From positions 1 to 29,838 of the IMG/VR virus record IMGVR_UViG_3300028925_007938: a stretch of 29,838 nucleotides of DNA; one strand, written 5' to 3'. Origin of the DNA: a virus. Each line of letters opens with the position of its first letter. Position 1 is the first letter of the stretch. The position numbers and the translations under genes were made by a program. Below are positions 3,718 through 13,540 of the stretch, one piece after another. The notes under the pieces were generated by a model. The model was given only the letters and a program-made list of their open reading frames with translations, had not been told where the DNA came from and ran no database searches.

Positions 3718-4168
3718 AGATTCTGTTACGTCTTGCTTGAACAACTTCGGGATCAGTCTGATTACTTTTTCTTTGTAGTCTTGACTGCTTGAAACTGACT
3801 GCGTTTCTAAGCCATTTCCTAAAGAGTGCGTCCCAATCTGCTGAGAGTTTAGCCTCGCTAATGTAGTAGTCTTTGAATTGTTTGTGTTCATCGTTTATAT
3901 TTACCTCATTGAATAATATTATTAACTCTTCTAAAACATTTTCATCTGGATAGTACTGGTGTACTGTAGTCTTATCCTCTGATAAAATTATTTTTACGGC
4001 AAGGGCCTCACACCAATTAACAAAGTTTAATGCGTTTGGTGTACACTCTTCTCTCTCCCATTTGCCCACGTTCTTTTCGTTGACACCTATAAGAGTAGAC
4101 GTTTCTTCCGCTGATATCCTAAGATACTGCCGTCTCTTTTTTAGTCTAGCAATGATATCGCTATACAT
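3653..4168 (-). CDS. Replication initiator-like protein: XRE helix-turn-helix plus DnaT-like C-terminal motif
   Basis: Residues 4-58 form a Cro/CI-type helix-turn-helix (IIARLKKRRQYLRISAEETS, then TLIGVNEKNVGKWEREE). After a linker, residues 99-123 read FKDYYISEAKLSADWDALFR, then KWLRNA. This matches the F..YY....WDA.WR.W.RNA motif at the end of phage replication proteins and DnaT-like primosome proteins, which contacts the helicase machinery. The combination suggests a protein that binds an origin or operator and recruits replication factors. The start at 4168 overlaps the upstream gene by eight bases, with AAGGAC in front. Codons about 68-76 contain one copy of a 25-base repeat also found at 7212-7236, a possible origin-linked site. 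A pure repressor is less likely given the C-terminal motif. Confidence 0.7.
   Translation of the reverse strand: MYSDIIARLKKRRQYLRISAEETSTLIGVNEKNVGKWEREECTPNALNFVNWCEALAVKIILSEDKTTVHQYYPDENVLEELIILFNEVNINDEHKQFKDYYISEAKLSADWDALFRKWLRNAVSFKQSRLQRKSNQTDPEVVQARRNRIYDVASIRDKVSVLPTKLLKHK
3942..3966. repeat. 25-base exact repeat, copy inside the replication gene
   Basis: This segment is identical over 25 bases and in the same orientation to 7212-7236. It contains the small dyad AGTAC-TGGT-GTACT. It lies in the coding sequence of the HTH/DnaT-like gene. Confidence 0.9.
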
Positions 4169-5840: not shown

Positions 5841-6136
5841 TATTTTATCTCCATATTTTCATACATTAATTTTTGAGTTTTTATTCCTATATCTTTATGG
5901 CTATAAAGTCCCCACATATAGTGATACATTTCAGTCATGCTTAAGCCACCATAAATTTCTTTGTAAGCTTGTAAATCTTCAGGTATTCTTATATGCAAAT
6001 GCCCTTCCTGGTCATACCATCTTAAAAGATATGGTCTTATTAAATCATTTTCTTTATACACTATCCAATATCCATAGTGAGTGCGACGATTTAAACTGTG
6101 TAATAAACGTTTTATTTTTCCTGATATTTTACTCAT
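5840..6136 (-). CDS. Hypothetical early protein
   Basis: I start this at ATG 6136 because AAAAGGAG lies about seven bases before it and the ATGA overlap with the upstream stop is typical of this operon; an open extension reaches 6193. The 98-residue product is basic at its N-terminus (SKISGKIKRLLHSLNRR) and rich in Tyr, Trp and His through the middle (HYGYWIVYKENDLIRPYLLR, then WYDQEGHLHIR). The pattern suggests a small beta-rich fold followed by helices. No family was recognised and no catalytic set was seen. It could be a small DNA- or protein-binding factor. Confidence 0.7.
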   Translation of the reverse strand: MSKISGKIKRLLHSLNRRTHYGYWIVYKENDLIRPYLLRWYDQEGHLHIRIPEDLQAYKEIYGGLSMTEMYHYMWGLYSHKDIGIKTQKLMYENMEIK

Positions 6137-6318
6137 AGTATTCTCCTTTTCTCTTCTATTAATCTTAAGATTGCTTGGCCACATTCGTACCAACCATGCG
6201 ACGCATCGTCTGCTTTTCTTTGACCCGTTTCAAAATCTGAAAAACGTGTCTCTTCATAGTCTTCGATAACTTGATTACAAAATATTTCTACTTGTAATAA
6301 TATTTTTGGTGCTATCAT
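6133..6318 (-). CDS. Small hypothetical protein, downstream paralog of a tandem pair
   Basis: This 61-residue protein is related to the product of the gene just upstream. Both share V/I-EIFC, a following I-x-DYE, then G-F/W-YEC and a C-terminal IL-x-LI-E-x-R-x-x-L. The similarity extends to the DNA, for example ACAAAATATTTCTA in both. The start overlaps the upstream stop and the end overlaps the next start (ATGA at 6133-6136). It has two conserved cysteines spaced about 30 residues apart, no membrane segment and a helical character. No family was recognised. The pair is a tandem duplication that has diverged, mainly in the loop between DYE and YEC, which is six residues longer here. Confidence 0.7.
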   Translation of the reverse strand: MIAPKILLQVEIFCNQVIEDYEETRFSDFETGQRKADDASHGWYECGQAILRLIEEKRRIL

Positions 6319-6518
6319 AGTACACTCCTATTCTCTTTTATTAATTCTAAAATTGTTTTGCTACATTCGTAGAAACCATCTATGTATTCATCAATGTCAT
6401 CGATGTCTAATGCTTCATAGTCTGCGATAGCTTTACTACAAAATATTTCTATTTGATTTGTTTTATCTTTCTTGATTAGTGCTACTAATAATGCTCTATT
6501 GTTATAAGTATAAGCCAT
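6315..6518 (-). CDS. Small hypothetical protein, upstream paralog of a tandem pair
   Basis: This 67-residue product is the partner of the neighbouring 61-residue protein. Conserved elements are IEIFCSKAIADYE near the middle, GFYECSKTILELIKEN near the end, and the same cysteine pair. Its N-terminal 20 residues (MAYTYNNRALLVALIKKDKT) are unrelated to the paralog and may be a separate short strand and helix. AAGGGA precedes the start. The stop overlaps the start of the paralog by four bases, so the two are probably made in similar amounts and could form a heterodimer. Function is unknown. Confidence 0.7.
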   Translation of the reverse strand: MAYTYNNRALLVALIKKDKTNQIEIFCSKAIADYEALDIDDIDEYIDGFYECSKTILELIKENRSVL

Positions 6519-6946: not shown

Positions 6947-6966
6947 AATATTAATCCCTCAATTAA

Positions 6967-7029
6967 TTATATTCCTTTTGTTTTTTTACAGACACGAAGC
7001 CAAAGGAAATATAAAAGACTTCGTGTCTG
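6967..7029 (-). ncRNA. Hairpin with possible pseudoknot in the operon leader
   Basis: An 11-base perfect inverted repeat (6989-6999 with 7019-7029, CAGACACGAAG) encloses a 19-base loop. Part of that loop (7001-7014) is complementary at 12 of 14 positions to 6967-6980, just outside the stem. The two pairings interleave, as in an H-type pseudoknot, and the distal partner lies about 20 bases before the first gene's ATG at 6946. No U tract follows on the minus strand, so it is not an intrinsic terminator. Confidence 0.5.
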
Positions 7030-7176
7030 CTAGTTAAGCACCGAATGTGGAGGCCCATCAGTAAGTTACTCTAACTATTGTATGTGCAATAATTACCAGC
7101 AACCATAGACTTTAAAGTCATACGTTCTTGCTACGTATGATATCTATTAGAAGACACGTTTACTTAATTAATCTCA
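7030..7176 (-). repeat. Structured leader element, downstream copy
   Basis: Read on the minus strand, this begins GATTAATTAAGTA and ends ATTCGGTGCTTAACTAG, closely matching the ends of the element at 7324-7409. The interior contains the perfect stem CATACGT/ACGTATG and the palindrome GACTTTAAAGTC. The interior differs in length and sequence from the other copy, while the ends are conserved. Confidence 0.45.
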
Positions 7177-7211
7177 TAAAATTGGTTGTAATATGATAAG
7201 TGTCCAGCTGA

Positions 7212-7236
7212 TCATCTGGATAGTACTGGTGTACTG
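7212..7236. repeat. 25-base exact repeat, intergenic copy
   Basis: This is identical to 3942-3966 and in the same orientation. It lies between the two structured elements of the early leader. The dyad AGTAC-TGGT-GTACT suggests a protein-binding site. Confidence 0.9.
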
Positions 7237-7323
7237 ATTAACTTTTCTTCTTTAAATCCTTCTTCTAGCTTGCCGCTTTAAAGTGTTTTAGAATTCGCCT
7301 TTGTCCACCTCACTGCTTAACAA

Positions 7324-7409
7324 CTAATTAAGCATCGAATCCTATTGACTACTCAAACAGACCTTAGGTCTTTATGGTTCACAATAGTATGACTACTTAA
7401 TTAATCTCT
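7324..7409 (-). repeat. Structured leader element, upstream copy
   Basis: On the minus strand the ends TAATTAAG and CTTAATTA pair over eight bases. Inside, CTATTG pairs with CAATAG, and AGACC-TAA-GGTCT closes the tip. Internal loops on the two sides are of similar length (8/9 and 10/11), giving one long interrupted hairpin. It is not a tRNA: no T-arm or anticodon arm of the right geometry is present. Confidence 0.45.
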
Positions 7410-7422
7410 ACATTACTTATAC

Positions 7423-7454
7423 ATTATATTATACTAACTTATATATTAGTACAA
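7423..7454 (-). promoter_or_regulatory. Candidate early promoter
   Basis: On the minus strand, TTGTAC (7454-7449) is followed after 15 bases by TATAAT (7433-7428), overlapping a second TATAAT (7428-7423). The -10 matches are perfect but the spacing is short (15) or long (20). This would give a leader of about 470 bases for the early operon. Confidence 0.35.
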
Positions 7455-7463
7455 GTAATTTTG

Positions 7464-7550
7464 TTACGTTGATAAATATAATAATAGCACTGCCATTAGC
7501 CATGCTGATATTAGTGTGTAAGCTACAAGCTTGCATATAAATACACGCAT
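7464..7550 (-). CDS. 28-residue membrane peptide
   Basis: A short frame starts at ATG 7550, three bases after the stop of the DUF2958-like gene, and encodes MRVFICKLVAYTLISAWLMA followed by VLLLYLST. Nearly the whole peptide is one hydrophobic helix with two N-terminal basic residues, so it should insert with its N-terminus in the cytoplasm. GGAG lies about nine bases before the start, within the end of the previous gene, suggesting coupled translation. Single-helix phage peptides of this size often act as holin-like, toxin or membrane-protein-modulating factors, but nothing here picks one. It could be a chance frame. Confidence 0.45.
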   Translation of the reverse strand: MRVFICKLVAYTLISAWLMAVLLLYLST

Positions 7551-7553
7551 TAC

Positions 7554-8079: not shown

Positions 8080-8679
8080 TTATTTAGTTAACTTATATGC
8101 TTCCTTTCTAGCTTTCTGCTCTTCTTGTTTAGCATTATACCTTGCCATAGTATCGGTTTGTTGTTGCATCTTAACAACGTTACCTGTTGCAGGGTAAGGT
8201 ACATACATTTTCTTAGCTTTATTTAAGTAAGATATTTCAGCAACTATTTGCATCTCTTTGTATATAACAACTTGAGCTTCTAACTTATCTTGGTAATCTA
8301 AAGCGTTACTTAATTGCACATCAAGTTTAATGTTGCTTGGATCAATTACAAGTTCTTCATGCCAAGCCTTAGCTTCACCTCCTTTATCTGCTATACTTTT
8401 ATGTGCACTTTGAGTCATTCTAGATATAGCACTAATTAAATTTCCAGTCATTCTAACATCTAGAAAGTAGCTTCTGCTTTCAACTATACCTTCAAATGCT
8501 TCTTGCAATAAAGGTAGTACAGATTCTAATCTCTGAGCGTTGCTACCTTTGTAGTTTTCGTTCTTAATTAAATCTTTGTAACTATCTTCAAGCTTGCTTA
8601 TCGCCGATTGATCCTTGCTTTCTTCCACTTCACTGCTTTCACTCATAAAATCAGAAGTTTTCTTATTTAAATTTGTCAT
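8080..8679 (-). CDS. Hypothetical protein with its own leader and terminator
   Basis: This 199-residue protein has three parts: a Ser/Glu/Asp-rich disordered N-terminus (about residues 8-30), a helical core (ISKLEDSYKDLIKNENYKGS through LISAISRMTQSAHKSIAD), and a C-terminal charged helix rich in Gln, Lys and Glu. No family or active site was recognised. It stands alone on the minus strand between a structured non-coding region and a strong terminator, so it is regulated as a single-gene unit. That fits an abundant DNA-associated or regulatory protein; this is inference. AAAGGAA precedes the start by about ten bases. Its first nine codons plus about 70 bases of leader are duplicated in inverted orientation at 8938-9042. 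Confidence 0.8.
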   Translation of the reverse strand: MTNLNKKTSDFMSESSEVEESKDQSAISKLEDSYKDLIKNENYKGSNAQRLESVLPLLQEAFEGIVESRSYFLDVRMTGNLISAISRMTQSAHKSIADKGGEAKAWHEELVIDPSNIKLDVQLSNALDYQDKLEAQVVIYKEMQIVAEISYLNKAKKMYVPYPATGNVVKMQQQTDTMARYNAKQEEQKARKEAYKLTK

Positions 8680-8750
8680 TTTTTCGTTTCCTTTAGTTTG
8701 GTTGAAGTTTTAAATTAACACCCACCGAGCATATCCAAACAAGTATGTCA
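8654..8750 (-). repeat. Left arm of an inverted duplication (gene leader and first codons)
   Basis: Three blocks are identical to the right arm when reverse-complemented: 8728-8750 (23 bases), 8688-8712 (25 bases) and 8654-8685 (32 bases). They cover the leader, ribosome site and first nine codons of the 199-residue gene. Confidence 0.95.
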
Positions 8751-8751
8751 T

Positions 8752-8902
8752 CTCGCACTTGCGAGGCTTGAATATTTATTTGAAGATAATTTGTGTAGGC
8801 AACACGCCATCTGTCAAGGGTGAAGCGAATAGCTTCATAGCACATGCCCTTGACAGATTACTTGGGCCCTAACAGCAAATGCTTTGCTGTTAACTTACCA
8901 AG
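8752..8902. other. Cluster of perfect hairpins between the inverted arms
   Basis: Three hairpins occupy the spacer of the inverted duplication. One is CTCGC-ACTT-GCGAG at 8752-8765. A second has a 12-base stem at 8809-8820/8847-8858 (ATCTGTCAAGGG) enclosing TGAAGC-GAATA-GCTTCA. The third has a 10-base stem TAACAGCAAA-TGC-TTTGCTGTTA at 8870-8892, extended by CTTGG/CCAAG at 8861-8902. No coding frame of note was seen. Confidence 0.8.
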
Positions 8903-8937
8903 GGTAATAGCTGTACTAGGCACAACAAAAAAATATT

Positions 8938-9042
8938 TGACATACTTGTTTGGATATGCTGTGGACTTGGTTAATTATAAAACTTCAACCAAACTAAAGG
9001 AAGCACCTTAGAAAAAATGACAAATTTAAATAAGAAAACTTC
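8938..9042 (+). repeat. Right arm of the inverted duplication
   Basis: Blocks 8938-8960, 8978-9002 and 9011-9042 repeat the leader and first nine codons of the 199-residue gene, now facing right. Between blocks, six extra bases lie before the last block, so the ribosome site is further from the ATG than in the original. Confidence 0.95.
8955..8978 (+). promoter_or_regulatory. Repeated motif, copy 1 (candidate regulatory site)
   Basis: TATGCTGTGGACTTGG is followed by TTAATTAT. The same motif with one extra G occurs at 9346-9370, and a degenerate version (TATGCTCGGTGGGTG then TTAATT) faces left in the other arm of the inverted duplication. No clean sigma-70 hexamers fit. A site for a phage or host regulator is the likeliest reading. 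Confidence 0.45.
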
Positions 9043-9085
9043 CCTCCCATCGAGTCCTATAATCATAGGAGTCAGTGGGTTTTAA
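9017..9085 (+). pseudogene. 22-codon frame: duplicated start of the 199-residue gene
   Basis: The ATG and first nine codons (MTNLNKKTS) are those of the minus-strand gene starting at 8679, duplicated in inverted orientation. The frame then runs into unrelated sequence (LPSSPIIIGVSGF) and stops. The ribosome site AAAGGAA is about 16 bases from the ATG, compared with about ten in the original, so translation should be weak. It reads as a by-product of the duplication, though a leader peptide cannot be excluded. Confidence 0.6.
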
Positions 9086-9345
9086 AATGACCACTTCACT
9101 TGTCATTTTAAAACTATTCTAGAGCGTTAAGCGACCTCTATTATCATGAGCTTTAGCGAACTGATGATACTTGTCAATGCAAGTGTTTACCATATTCTTT
9201 GACCCGTGTCAAAGAAGAGCACACCTTTTTTTCGAATAACGCTGAGAAAAAAAGCCAATCAGTAACATATCTATGATATGGCTTATTGGCTGTGTTATGG
9301 TATATCAGATGCCATGGGTAGAACCATGGTGAATGATAAACCATA
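9055..9345 (+). ncRNA. Candidate large structured RNA: consecutive hairpins upstream of terS
   Basis: Nearly every base lies in a hairpin. In order these are TCCTAT/ATAGGA (9055-9070); a 13-base perfect stem GTTTTAAAATGAC (9079-9091/9102-9114); TAGAG/CTCTA (9120-9140); TATCAT/ATGATA (9142-9169); ACTTG/CAAGT (9169-9184); TTCTTTGAC/GTCAAAGAA (9195-9216); CTTTTTTTC/GAAAAAAAG (9225-9254); AGCCAAT/ATTGGCT enclosing CATATC/GATATG (9253-9291); and a nested hairpin at 9296-9345. No frame longer than about 20 codons is present. It could act as RNA, or as DNA structure at an origin or packaging site. Confidence 0.5.
9296..9345. other. Symmetric nested hairpin with twin CCATGG
   Basis: Outer stem TATGGT/ACCATA, a one-base by one-base loop, TATCA/TGATA, a four-by-four internal loop, then CCATGG-GTAGAA-CCATGG. 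All internal loops are symmetric. A similar CCATGG pair recurs at 9830-9846 on the other side of terS. Confidence 0.6.
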
Positions 9346-9370
9346 TATGCTGTGGACTTGGGTTAATTAT
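9346..9370 (+). promoter_or_regulatory. Repeated motif, copy 2 (candidate regulatory site)
   Basis: TATGCTGTGGACTTGGG is followed by TTAATTAT, matching 8955-8978 with one inserted G. It lies immediately after the nested hairpin and about 80 bases before terS, so it may control late transcription. Confidence 0.45.
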
Positions 9371-9401
9371 TGCTATCTTGCAGAATAACCATTATGTTGG
9401 C

Positions 9402-9430
9402 TTGACATGTTAAAGCTTAGGTGCGATAAC
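9402..9430 (+). promoter_or_regulatory. Candidate promoter of the late operon
   Basis: A perfect TTGACA (9402-9407) is followed after 17 bases by GATAAC (9425-9430). Transcription would begin near 9437, leaving a very short leader whose first bases are the AAGGGG ribosome site of terS. The short leader lowers confidence. Confidence 0.45.
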
Positions 9431-9447
9431 TATCCAAGGGGAATGAT

Positions 9448-9828
9448 ATGAAATTAGCAAAGACAATGAATATACAGATAAGTAGTAAAGCTAAGTTATT
9501 AGTTGATACTCTCGTATCTACTGGTTGTACTATTACAAAAGCATCTAAGCTAGCAGGATATAAAGGAAATAGTTCTAGAGTATCTGCTTCTCGTATGTTA
9601 CGTAAACCAGAAGTACAAGAGTACATGGCTCAAGAAGTCCGTAGGTCTTTCGGTTTACTCTCGGCTAAAGCTATATCTAAGATTAGTCAGTTAAGTTCTG
9701 GTGCTAAGAGTGAGTATGTTGCACTAGAAGCTAGCAAAGATATACTAGATAGGGCTGGGTTCAAAGCACCTGACCAGCACCAGCATTTGCTGGGCGGTAA
9801 TTTGTCTGTGAATATTGATTTGGGCTAG
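9448..9828 (+). CDS. Terminase small subunit
   Basis: The 126-residue product has an N-terminal helix-turn-helix (residues about 12-55, with GCTITKASKLAGYKG and the RVSASRMLRKPEVQEYM helix). A helical middle (LLSAKAISKISQLSSGAKSE) follows, then the typical end EASKDILDRAGFKAP. Small subunits recognise the phage DNA at the packaging start site and stimulate the large subunit. The helix-turn-helix, the 'LxxPEVxxYM' helix and the 'AxxxILDRAG' segment are hallmarks of this family. AAGGGG precedes the ATG. The large subunit lies 2.2 kb downstream, separated by six small genes. Twin CCATGG motifs flank the gene and could be its binding sites. Confidence 0.85.
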   Translation: MKLAKTMNIQISSKAKLLVDTLVSTGCTITKASKLAGYKGNSSRVSASRMLRKPEVQEYMAQEVRRSFGLLSAKAISKISQLSSGAKSEYVALEASKDILDRAGFKAPDQHQHLLGGNLSVNIDLG

Positions 9829-9829
9829 G

Positions 9830-9846
9830 CCATGGTATATCCATGG
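9830..9846. repeat. Twin CCATGG motif after terS
   Basis: CCATGG-TATAT-CCATGG, two bases past the terS stop, resembles the CCATGG-GTAGAA-CCATGG pair at 9312-9329 upstream of the gene. ATGGTATATC is also shared between the two sites. Confidence 0.6.
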
Positions 9847-9849
9847 TCA

Positions 9850-9882
9850 TTCGCCCCCATCTTTCGATGAGGGGGGGGCGAA
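9850..9882. other. GC-rich hairpin after terS
   Basis: TTCGCCCCC (9850-9858) pairs with GGGGGCGAA (9874-9882), with ATC-TTTC-GAT inside and five unpaired purines on one side. No U tract follows on either strand, so it is not a standard terminator. It may be an RNA-processing or stability element between terS and the next genes. Confidence 0.6.
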
Positions 9883-9931
9883 AAATTGAATCTTGACATC
9901 TAGTAATGGTGTTGCTCACAGAATTTTTTCC

Positions 9932-11857: not shown

Positions 11858-12054
11858 TGTCTAGTATATTTAAGAAGGTTATGATTAAGGATTTAGGTGC
11901 ATTGCGTACTGTTGTAAGGACACAACACATGAAACACTACCCAGAATCACATATTAATGACTATGAAGCAGACCGCATTATAGAATCTTTATCCGAAAAC
12001 GCAAAAGAAAAACTAATTAAGTTAGCTGTAGACTATGGGATCACTGAATTATAA
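11857..12054 (+). CDS. Small hypothetical protein before terL
   Basis: This 65-residue protein contains MSSIFKKVMIKDLGALRTVV, a basic-aromatic centre (QHMKHYPESHINDYEADRII) and a helical end (SLSENAKEKLIKLAVDYGIT). No family was recognised. The TAATG overlap upstream and the 20-base overlap with terL downstream show tight coupling, so it is likely made with the terminase. The D-Y-E-A-D-R-I-I helix and the short length suggest a helper of packaging rather than an enzyme. Confidence 0.7.
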   Translation: MSSIFKKVMIKDLGALRTVVRTQHMKHYPESHINDYEADRIIESLSENAKEKLIKLAVDYGITEL

Positions 12055-13540
12055 ACCCGATGGGGAAACACTAAAGCTTTTTCTAAAGGACGAAAGTTTC
12101 TTCAGAGGATTAAGAGGCCCTGTCGGTAGCGGTAAGTCTGTTGCTTGTTGCATTGAGGTACTAAGGCGTGCCTTGTTGCAGAAAGTAGGAGAAGACGGCA
12201 AAAGAAAATCAAGGTGGGCTGTTATTCGTAACACAAATCCACAACTGAAAACAACAACAATCAAAACATGGCTGGACTGGTTCCCTGAAGAAGAATGGGG
12301 AAACTTTCATTGGAGTGTACCATTTACACACCACATAAAGAAAGGGGATTTAGACCTTGAAGTTATCTTTTTAGCCCTTGACAGACCTGAAGATGTAAAG
12401 AAATTGCTATCATTAGAGTTAACAGGTGTGTGGATTAACGAAGCAAGAGAGATTCCGAAGTCTATTGTTGACGCTTGCTCGATGCGTGTTGGTCGTTATC
12501 CTTCTATGAGAGATGGTGGCCCTAGTTGGTATGGTGTAATTTGCGATACTAACCCTCCAGACACAGATCATTGGTGGGCAATCATGGCAGGAGAGAGTGT
12601 ATTGCCTGATTATATTTCTAAACAAGAAGCTAAAATGCTAGTAAGACCAGATAACTGGACGTTTTATAACCAAGCTGCTGCGATGTTAGAGGTAAGAGAC
12701 ACAACAAAACAGATAACAGGGTACGAACAAAACCCTTTAATAGAGAATCAAAAGAACTTAACGAAAGATTACTACAAGAATATCATTAGAGGTAAGACAA
12801 AATCTTGGATAGACGTATATGTATGCAACAAACTAGGACAAGTAAGCGATGACAAACCTGTCTATGAAGCGTTTAGGCAAGATGTACACGTTGCTAAAGG
12901 TGACCTTGCTATCGCAGATGGTGTTCCAGTATTTATGGGAATTGATTTTGGCTTAACTCCTGCTTGTGTATTTGCACAAAGACTAAGAGGAAGGTGGATT
13001 GTATTTGATGAATTGGTGGCAGAAGATATGGGTATCGTTAGGTTCTCTGAGTTAATGAAAAGCTATATGGCACAGTGGTTGCCAAGAGAATTTATTATAT
13101 TTGGTGACCCTGCTGGAGACCAGAGAGTACAAACAGATGAAGCAACTCCTTTCCAGATACTAAGAGGGCGTGGATTACACGCAAGACCAGCACCATCTAA
13201 TGATGTTGCACTAAGATTAGAATCAGTGACTGCTGTATTAAGTCGTTTGACAGATGGAGAAAGCGGAATGATTATAGACCCGAAGTGTAAAAACTTAATC
13301 AGAGGGTTTATGGGTGGATATCACTATAGACGTATGCAAGTTTCAGGAGAAAGATACGATGAAAGACCTAATAAGAATAGGTTTTCTCATGTTCACGATG
13401 CGTTCCAGTACTTATTATTAGGAGCAGGTGAAGGAAGAGCATTGACTATAGGACAAAAACAAAGTAAACCTGTAGTAGCAAAAAGAAGTTTTAATGTATT
13501 TACTGTAAAACCACACTCAGTTTACGAAAGGCGAAGATAA
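12035..13540 (+). CDS. Terminase large subunit
   Basis: This 501-residue packaging motor has the expected domains. The ATPase carries the P-loop GPVGSGKS at residues 28-35, Walker B-like VWINEARE at 132-139 and the coupling motif DTNPP at 171-175. The RNase H-like nuclease carries MGIDFG at 301-306 (metal ligand Asp304), FGDPAGDQ at 356-363 and HVHDAFQYL near 452-460. It drives DNA through the portal and cuts concatemers. Length fits family members of 470-590 residues. The start overlaps the preceding gene by 20 bases. Identity is secure. Confidence 0.95.
   Translation: MGSLNYKPDGETLKLFLKDESFFRGLRGPVGSGKSVACCIEVLRRALLQKVGEDGKRKSRWAVIRNTNPQLKTTTIKTWLDWFPEEEWGNFHWSVPFTHHIKKGDLDLEVIFLALDRPEDVKKLLSLELTGVWINEAREIPKSIVDACSMRVGRYPSMRDGGPSWYGVICDTNPPDTDHWWAIMAGESVLPDYISKQEAKMLVRPDNWTFYNQAAAMLEVRDTTKQITGYEQNPLIENQKNLTKDYYKNIIRGKTKSWIDVYVCNKLGQVSDDKPVYEAFRQDVHVAKGDLAIADGVPVFMGIDFGLTPACVFAQRLRGRWIVFDELVAEDMGIVRFSELMKSYMAQWLPREFIIFGDPAGDQRVQTDEATPFQILRGRGLHARPAPSNDVALRLESVTAVLSRLTDGESGMIIDPKCKNLIRGFMGGYHYRRMQVSGERYDERPNKNRFSHVHDAFQYLLLGAGEGRALTIGQKQSKPVVAKRSFNVFTVKPHSVYERRR

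Follow-up and report, generated by a model that had tools for sequence, protein, structure and literature searches.

One of the closest described systems is the phi29 packaging RNA, an element of about 174 nt that lies near packaging genes. The ornate phage RNAs GOLLD and ROOL are large, highly structured non-coding stretches in phage genomes (PMC12286853). At the DNA level, a hairpin was reported during end formation in the podovirus T7 (PMC4281155); this fold-back is proposed at the concatemer junction, beside packaging functions, and its role is linked to terminal repeats and to ends that have been mapped. Template switching is a known process that homogenises the arms of inverted repeats (PMC8604942). 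One arm rewrites the other, yielding paired multi-base changes, and this was described for short scattered repeats (PMC8604942, PMC7202029). Last, Zhao et al. (2007) reported actively maintained inverted repeats in Caenorhabditis, in which structure is far more conserved than sequence; these repeats accompany gene pairs in divergent or convergent orientation, the two neighbours being paralogues, and have nearly perfect arms (PMC1803023).

No known element explains the mirror-like stretch of several hundred bases that we found beside the packaging gene terS in a marine phage. The DNA analysed, hereafter the window, is viral record IMGVR_UViG_3300028925_007938, a linear contig of 29,838 nucleotides. 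Like the Caenorhabditis repeats, the phage element keeps its structure far better than its sequence, but it is flanked by genes for unrelated proteins and its arms are imperfect and bulged. It recalls T7 as a possible DNA fold-back beside packaging functions, but the palindromes kept by these phages are far larger. In contrast to the repeats described for template switching, it occupies one locus, spans hundreds of bp and is retained across a phage group. Unlike GOLLD and ROOL, the element has no Rfam match in the window and no sequence motif conserved between phages, and the missing Rfam match also sets it apart from the phi29 RNA.

In the window, leftward and rightward gene sets diverge at region 8680-9447, which is the gap between a leftward 199-aa gene (8679 to 8080) and terS; the cumulative G-C skew of the window reaches its minimum at 9271. 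The packaging gene that the earlier note had placed beside this locus is indeed terS (Table 1). Among annotated phages, Pelagibacter phage EXVC031P Hodr is the nearest relative, with a TerL 81% identical to that of the window; the Hodr group carries TTGACA-N17-TATACT upstream of terS. The leftward 199-aa protein gave no PHROG match and no significant Pfam match, and its gene, used as a probe among viral sequences, retrieved no relatives; the window's own arms and hairpins are thus without alignable counterparts. Similarly, the intergenic sequence of the window had no similarity to that of the relatives' loci tested. The window also encodes the recombination proteins SSB, a RecE-like exonuclease and a RusA-like resolvase.

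Table 1. Features of the divergent junction in the window (positions in the window; strand given where assigned).
Feature	Position	Strand	Remarks
First leftward gene, 199 aa, function unassigned	8080..8679	-	No PHROG match, no significant Pfam match
Left arm	8654..8750		Start of the 199-aa leftward gene: ribosome site, ATG (8679-8677), first eight codons
Palindrome loop with nested hairpins 8752-8765, 8811-8857, 8870-8892	8751..8937		Folding z -6.0
Right arm	8938..9042		Mirror copy of the start of the leftward gene (leader, ribosome site, ATG, 8 codons), read directly from the sequence
Repeat copy 1, ATATGCTGTGGACTTGG (17 nt) then TTAATTAT	8954..8978	+	Within right arm
About nine consecutive short hairpins	9055..9345		z -7.3 (+), -6.0 (-) over 9050-9349
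Repeat copy 2, ATATGCTGTGGACTTGG then TTAATTAT, one extra G	9345..9370	+	Right end of hairpin array
Candidate terS promoter, TTGACA-N17-GATAAC	9402..9430	+	Inferred from sequence; compare Hodr group
terS, terminase small subunit	9448..9828	+	PF03592 7e-07, PHROG 2538; late rightward genes downstream

Bases 8654-9042 form a single imperfect palindrome of 389 bases (a quasi-palindrome), in which the arm blocks 8654-8685/9011-9042, 8688-8712/8978-9002 and 8728-8750/8938-8960 are each 100% complementary (32, 25 and 23 nt, respectively). Folding of the whole palindrome gave a z of -21, and its self-complement score was 232, whereas none of 138 control windows from this contig exceeded 47. Palindromes were scored by Smith-Waterman, which replaced an erratic blast-based scan (it had missed locus L024). 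Read rightward, the right arm holds a 22-codon frame only. ATATGCTGTGGACTTGG is an exact 17-nt direct repeat (8954-8970 and 9345-9361) and a possible operator; a degenerate mirrored form of it was seen in the left arm.

The hairpin array separates the palindrome from the candidate terS promoter. Bases 9050-9349 fold at -98.3 kcal/mol, lower than any of 200 shuffles on either strand (z in Table 1), and a 300-nt sliding fold scan of the whole window placed its two strongest + strand regions at 8701 and 9051. The earlier note had described a hairpin-dense, gene-poor stretch upstream of terS, and this stretch is real, with folding beyond shuffles on both strands; the perfect hairpins at 9079-9114 (13 bp), 9195-9216 (9 bp) and 9225-9254 (9 bp) were found again. 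Those reported within 8752-8902 exist as well, but they are not separate: they make up the loop of the larger 8654-9042 palindrome, which had been missed. A large structured RNA or DNA element was the right kind of proposal, whereas the core of the locus is one giant quasi-palindrome overlapping coding sequence and not a run of hairpins. The statement that no frame exceeds about 22 codons did not hold, as frames of 55 aa (8844-9011, +), 56 aa (9174-9344, -) and 50 aa (8693-8845, -) exist; they overlap structured sequence and we take them as probably due to chance. No specific match to GOLLD, ROOL or the phage packaging RNA had been seen, and an Rfam search of the window agreed, with 0 matches at the gathering threshold and chance-level matches only with lax settings over 8300-9900, so that none of these families is supported. 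A tRNA search found nothing.

Relatives were collected with the terS protein (80 viral loci per scan), and those with enough upstream DNA made 82 non-redundant loci. Upstream of terS, the palindrome score was at least 60 in 52 of the 82 loci and at least 95 in 39, the maximum in 633 control windows being 58; 75 loci beat their own controls. The left arm held the start codon of the leftward gene in most of these 39 strong loci. The feature was consistent across the Hodr-like group. HTVC010P scored 126 across its divergent junction. A pelagiphage-wide feature was nevertheless rejected, since only 12 of 27 HTVC010P relatives beat their controls and distant TerL relatives mostly lack the palindrome. 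An assembly artefact was also rejected because the element is present in an isolate (Hodr) and in many independent contigs, and its arms differ internally. Incidentally, across the record start of HTVC010P (L091/L092), an unannotated 92-aa rightward frame (MIKTLQQLKEVN...) begins in the right arm of the palindrome, and its ATG mirrors that of gp64. We also noticed shorter palindromes upstream of the terminase genes in two distant relatives, BcepC6B (L089, 1-98, score 96) and Vibrio phage VA-RY-3 (L086, 3995-4121, score 84).

In Hodr itself, the palindrome covers 808 bp (record 11889-12696) with a score of 390-400, the next best place genome-wide reaching 53. It is unique in the genome and sits at the junction where transcription directions diverge. 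In the Hodr group, it reaches as far as roughly codon 50 of terS and, on the other side, some 100 codons into the leftward gene, and the outer arm match was significant against shuffles in most of the group. Paralogy of the flanking genes was rejected, as the Hodr leftward protein and TerS share no similarity; neither do the terS and leftward-gene frames match across the mirror. That the symmetry runs into both genes despite unrelated proteins and differing frames points to self-complementarity, and not to any motif. As a separate observation, Hodr-group loci have a conserved leftward near-consensus promoter, TTGACA-N17-TAATAAT (internal TAGAACAAAC), at about -830 to -910 from terS, downstream of the first leftward gene.

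Both the scores at the 82 loci and a comparison of arms showed that the inverted-repeat structure is conserved more than the sequence. In 32 of 36 loci, the best match of an arm was its own partner, and about ten divergent loci, as well as the window, had arms that matched each other and were unrelated to the arms of any other phage. Inner segments were swapped wholesale for unrelated, again palindromic sequence (L016 versus L018; L084 versus L008). Among closer relatives, pair-preserving changes on both sides exceeded independence in many pairs. An alignment of eight Hodr-group phages contained 155 pairs, 30 of them with double pair-preserving changes; shuffling gave 10.3 ± 2.3 such pairs, and sliding the partners gave 4-13. 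The earlier note had named stems not preserved by paired changes in related phages as a refutation, and in these relatives the comparison at the same locus did not refute the proposal. Since relatives have different letters at the same place, it is the mirror form and not the sequence that is kept. Collectively, these data show that, at the divergent junction upstream of terS, the group keeps a quasi-palindrome of ~150-850 bp whose arms change together while the letters drift freely, and that this co-changing palindrome extends in places over both flanking coding regions.

Some of the pairs with double changes in the Hodr-group alignment belong to a side hairpin that is confined to the right arm; its loop CUCCUUGCC is conserved and four of its pairs covary. 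Mirror-copying alone would not explain this, and the hairpin suggests that structure is under selection.

In 16 of 20 independent palindromes, the folding advantage of the + strand (terS sense) over the - strand was larger than composition predicts (Wilcoxon p 0.003). It exceeded the shuffle prediction by 6.0 kcal/mol, and control stretches downstream of the terS start showed no strand bias in folding. This modest bias suggests that the + strand folds while single-stranded, as RNA or as DNA.

We tentatively lean, with less than even confidence, towards a strand-specific fold-back whose arms would rewrite each other, possibly through self-primed DNA synthesis at a terminase-side end as in T7. 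The + strand would become single-stranded, most likely as a 3' tail, once a cut on the terS side has made an end for the RecE-like phage exonuclease to resect; alternatively, it might be exposed as the lagging-strand template beside an origin. It would then snap back, one arm priming or templating synthesis of the other, and the phage would gain a DNA intermediate with a hairpin end or a fold-back, which would work much like the hairpin at the T7 concatemer junction. Copying arm from arm would rewrite one arm, keeping the mirror without keeping the letters. This would explain that self-complementarity persists in the absence of sequence conservation and ignores gene boundaries. T7 end formation is a mechanistic parallel to this reading, template switching a mutational one and the nematode inverted repeats an evolutionary one. 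Several points speak against it. Identical runs were clumped in the arms of the window (p<0.0005) and not in those of relatives, so that tract clumping as a proof of gene conversion was not upheld beyond the window. The arms of most relatives carry many small indels, which homogenisation should erase. The side hairpin suggests selection on structure, the + strand bias fits RNA equally well, and part of the G.T excess among mismatches reflects composition, the window itself having 1 G.T versus 5 A.C. Moreover, a gap of 300-400 bp separates the palindrome from terS both in the window and in some relatives.

The main rival of the DNA fold-back, a serious one though somewhat improbable in our view, is a large structured RNA read in the same direction as terS, comprising a rod-like stem (390-850 nt) and, in the window, the hairpin run. 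It might serve as a regulatory leader, as an antisense to the start of the leftward gene or as a particle RNA. The excess of covariation over both shuffled and slid controls, the + strand folding bias, the covarying side hairpin with its conserved CUCCUUGCC loop and the strong folding of the window array on the + strand would all fit such an RNA. However, besides the lack of an Rfam match, no sigma70-like promoter was consistently found on the + strand to the left of the palindrome, the terS promoter being located inside or after the right arm, and no sequence motif was common to different phage groups. Mismatches were also nearly strand-symmetric (purine-purine 391, pyrimidine-pyrimidine 361). 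G.T outnumbered A.C mismatches 175:63, but this excess is largely explained by G-rich mismatches, and pairwise single changes showed no G.T preference, those to G.T and to A.C being about equal. Hence, the G.T to A.C ratio was dropped as a proof of RNA; a modest signal persisted in the composition-controlled folding comparison alone.

It is unlikely that the junction is a functionless mutational hot spot, where template switching or fold-back would repeatedly make and homogenise inverted duplications. The spread of the mirror into two unrelated coding regions and the clumped identical tracts of the window would agree with this idea, as would the reported homogenisation of arms by template switching (PMC8604942). 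Yet the palindrome occurs at one place per phage, the same place group-wide, it is replaced wholesale by other palindromes, and the side hairpin, which is not part of the mirror, covaries too; moreover, instability is the norm for long palindromes (a point discussed in PMC1803023). Quite unlikely, too, is a symmetric divergent control region. In that case, promoter, leader and start region (operators or antiterminator sites) would be alike in both arms, so that the early-left and late-right units share one regulator, and the arms would co-vary because one factor must read both. It would account for the leftward start inside the left arm of most strong loci and for the third copy of the 17-nt repeat that the window has ahead of terS. 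However, short shared sites would suffice for it, whereas the match runs to hundreds of bases and takes in coding sequence; the frames of the right arm are short and lack conservation, and no conserved promoter is mirrored in both arms.

The locus is a clear phage case of form conserved without sequence: the palindrome reaches ~850 bp, keeps to a single position, spreads into the coding sequence of two unrelated genes and is invisible to sequence-based annotation and to Rfam. We regard it as possible but doubtful that it represents a new class of viral genome element, a giant fold-back over two genes that is defined purely by self-complementarity and can change its letters freely because its arms are mutually rewritten, and that would serve phages in DNA end formation or replication, or else as a rod-like RNA. 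If functional, it would be a cis-acting device for replication, packaging or RNA in an ocean phage group; if not, a locus-specific mutational process would be reshaping proteins from the reverse complement of their neighbour.

Other repeats were noticed in the window. The hairpin sequence TTCTTTGACCCGTGTCAAA (9195-9213) recurs with 95% identity at 6216-6234, in a leftward gene 3 kb away. TCATCTGGATAGTACTGGTGTACTG is an exact 25-nt direct repeat (3942-3966 and 7212-7236), the second copy of which lies within 6947-7553, a stretch without any frame of at least 50 aa. Finally, two adjacent leftward genes of 61 and 67 aa at 6133-6518 resemble a tandem duplication (43-nt repeat, 88%).
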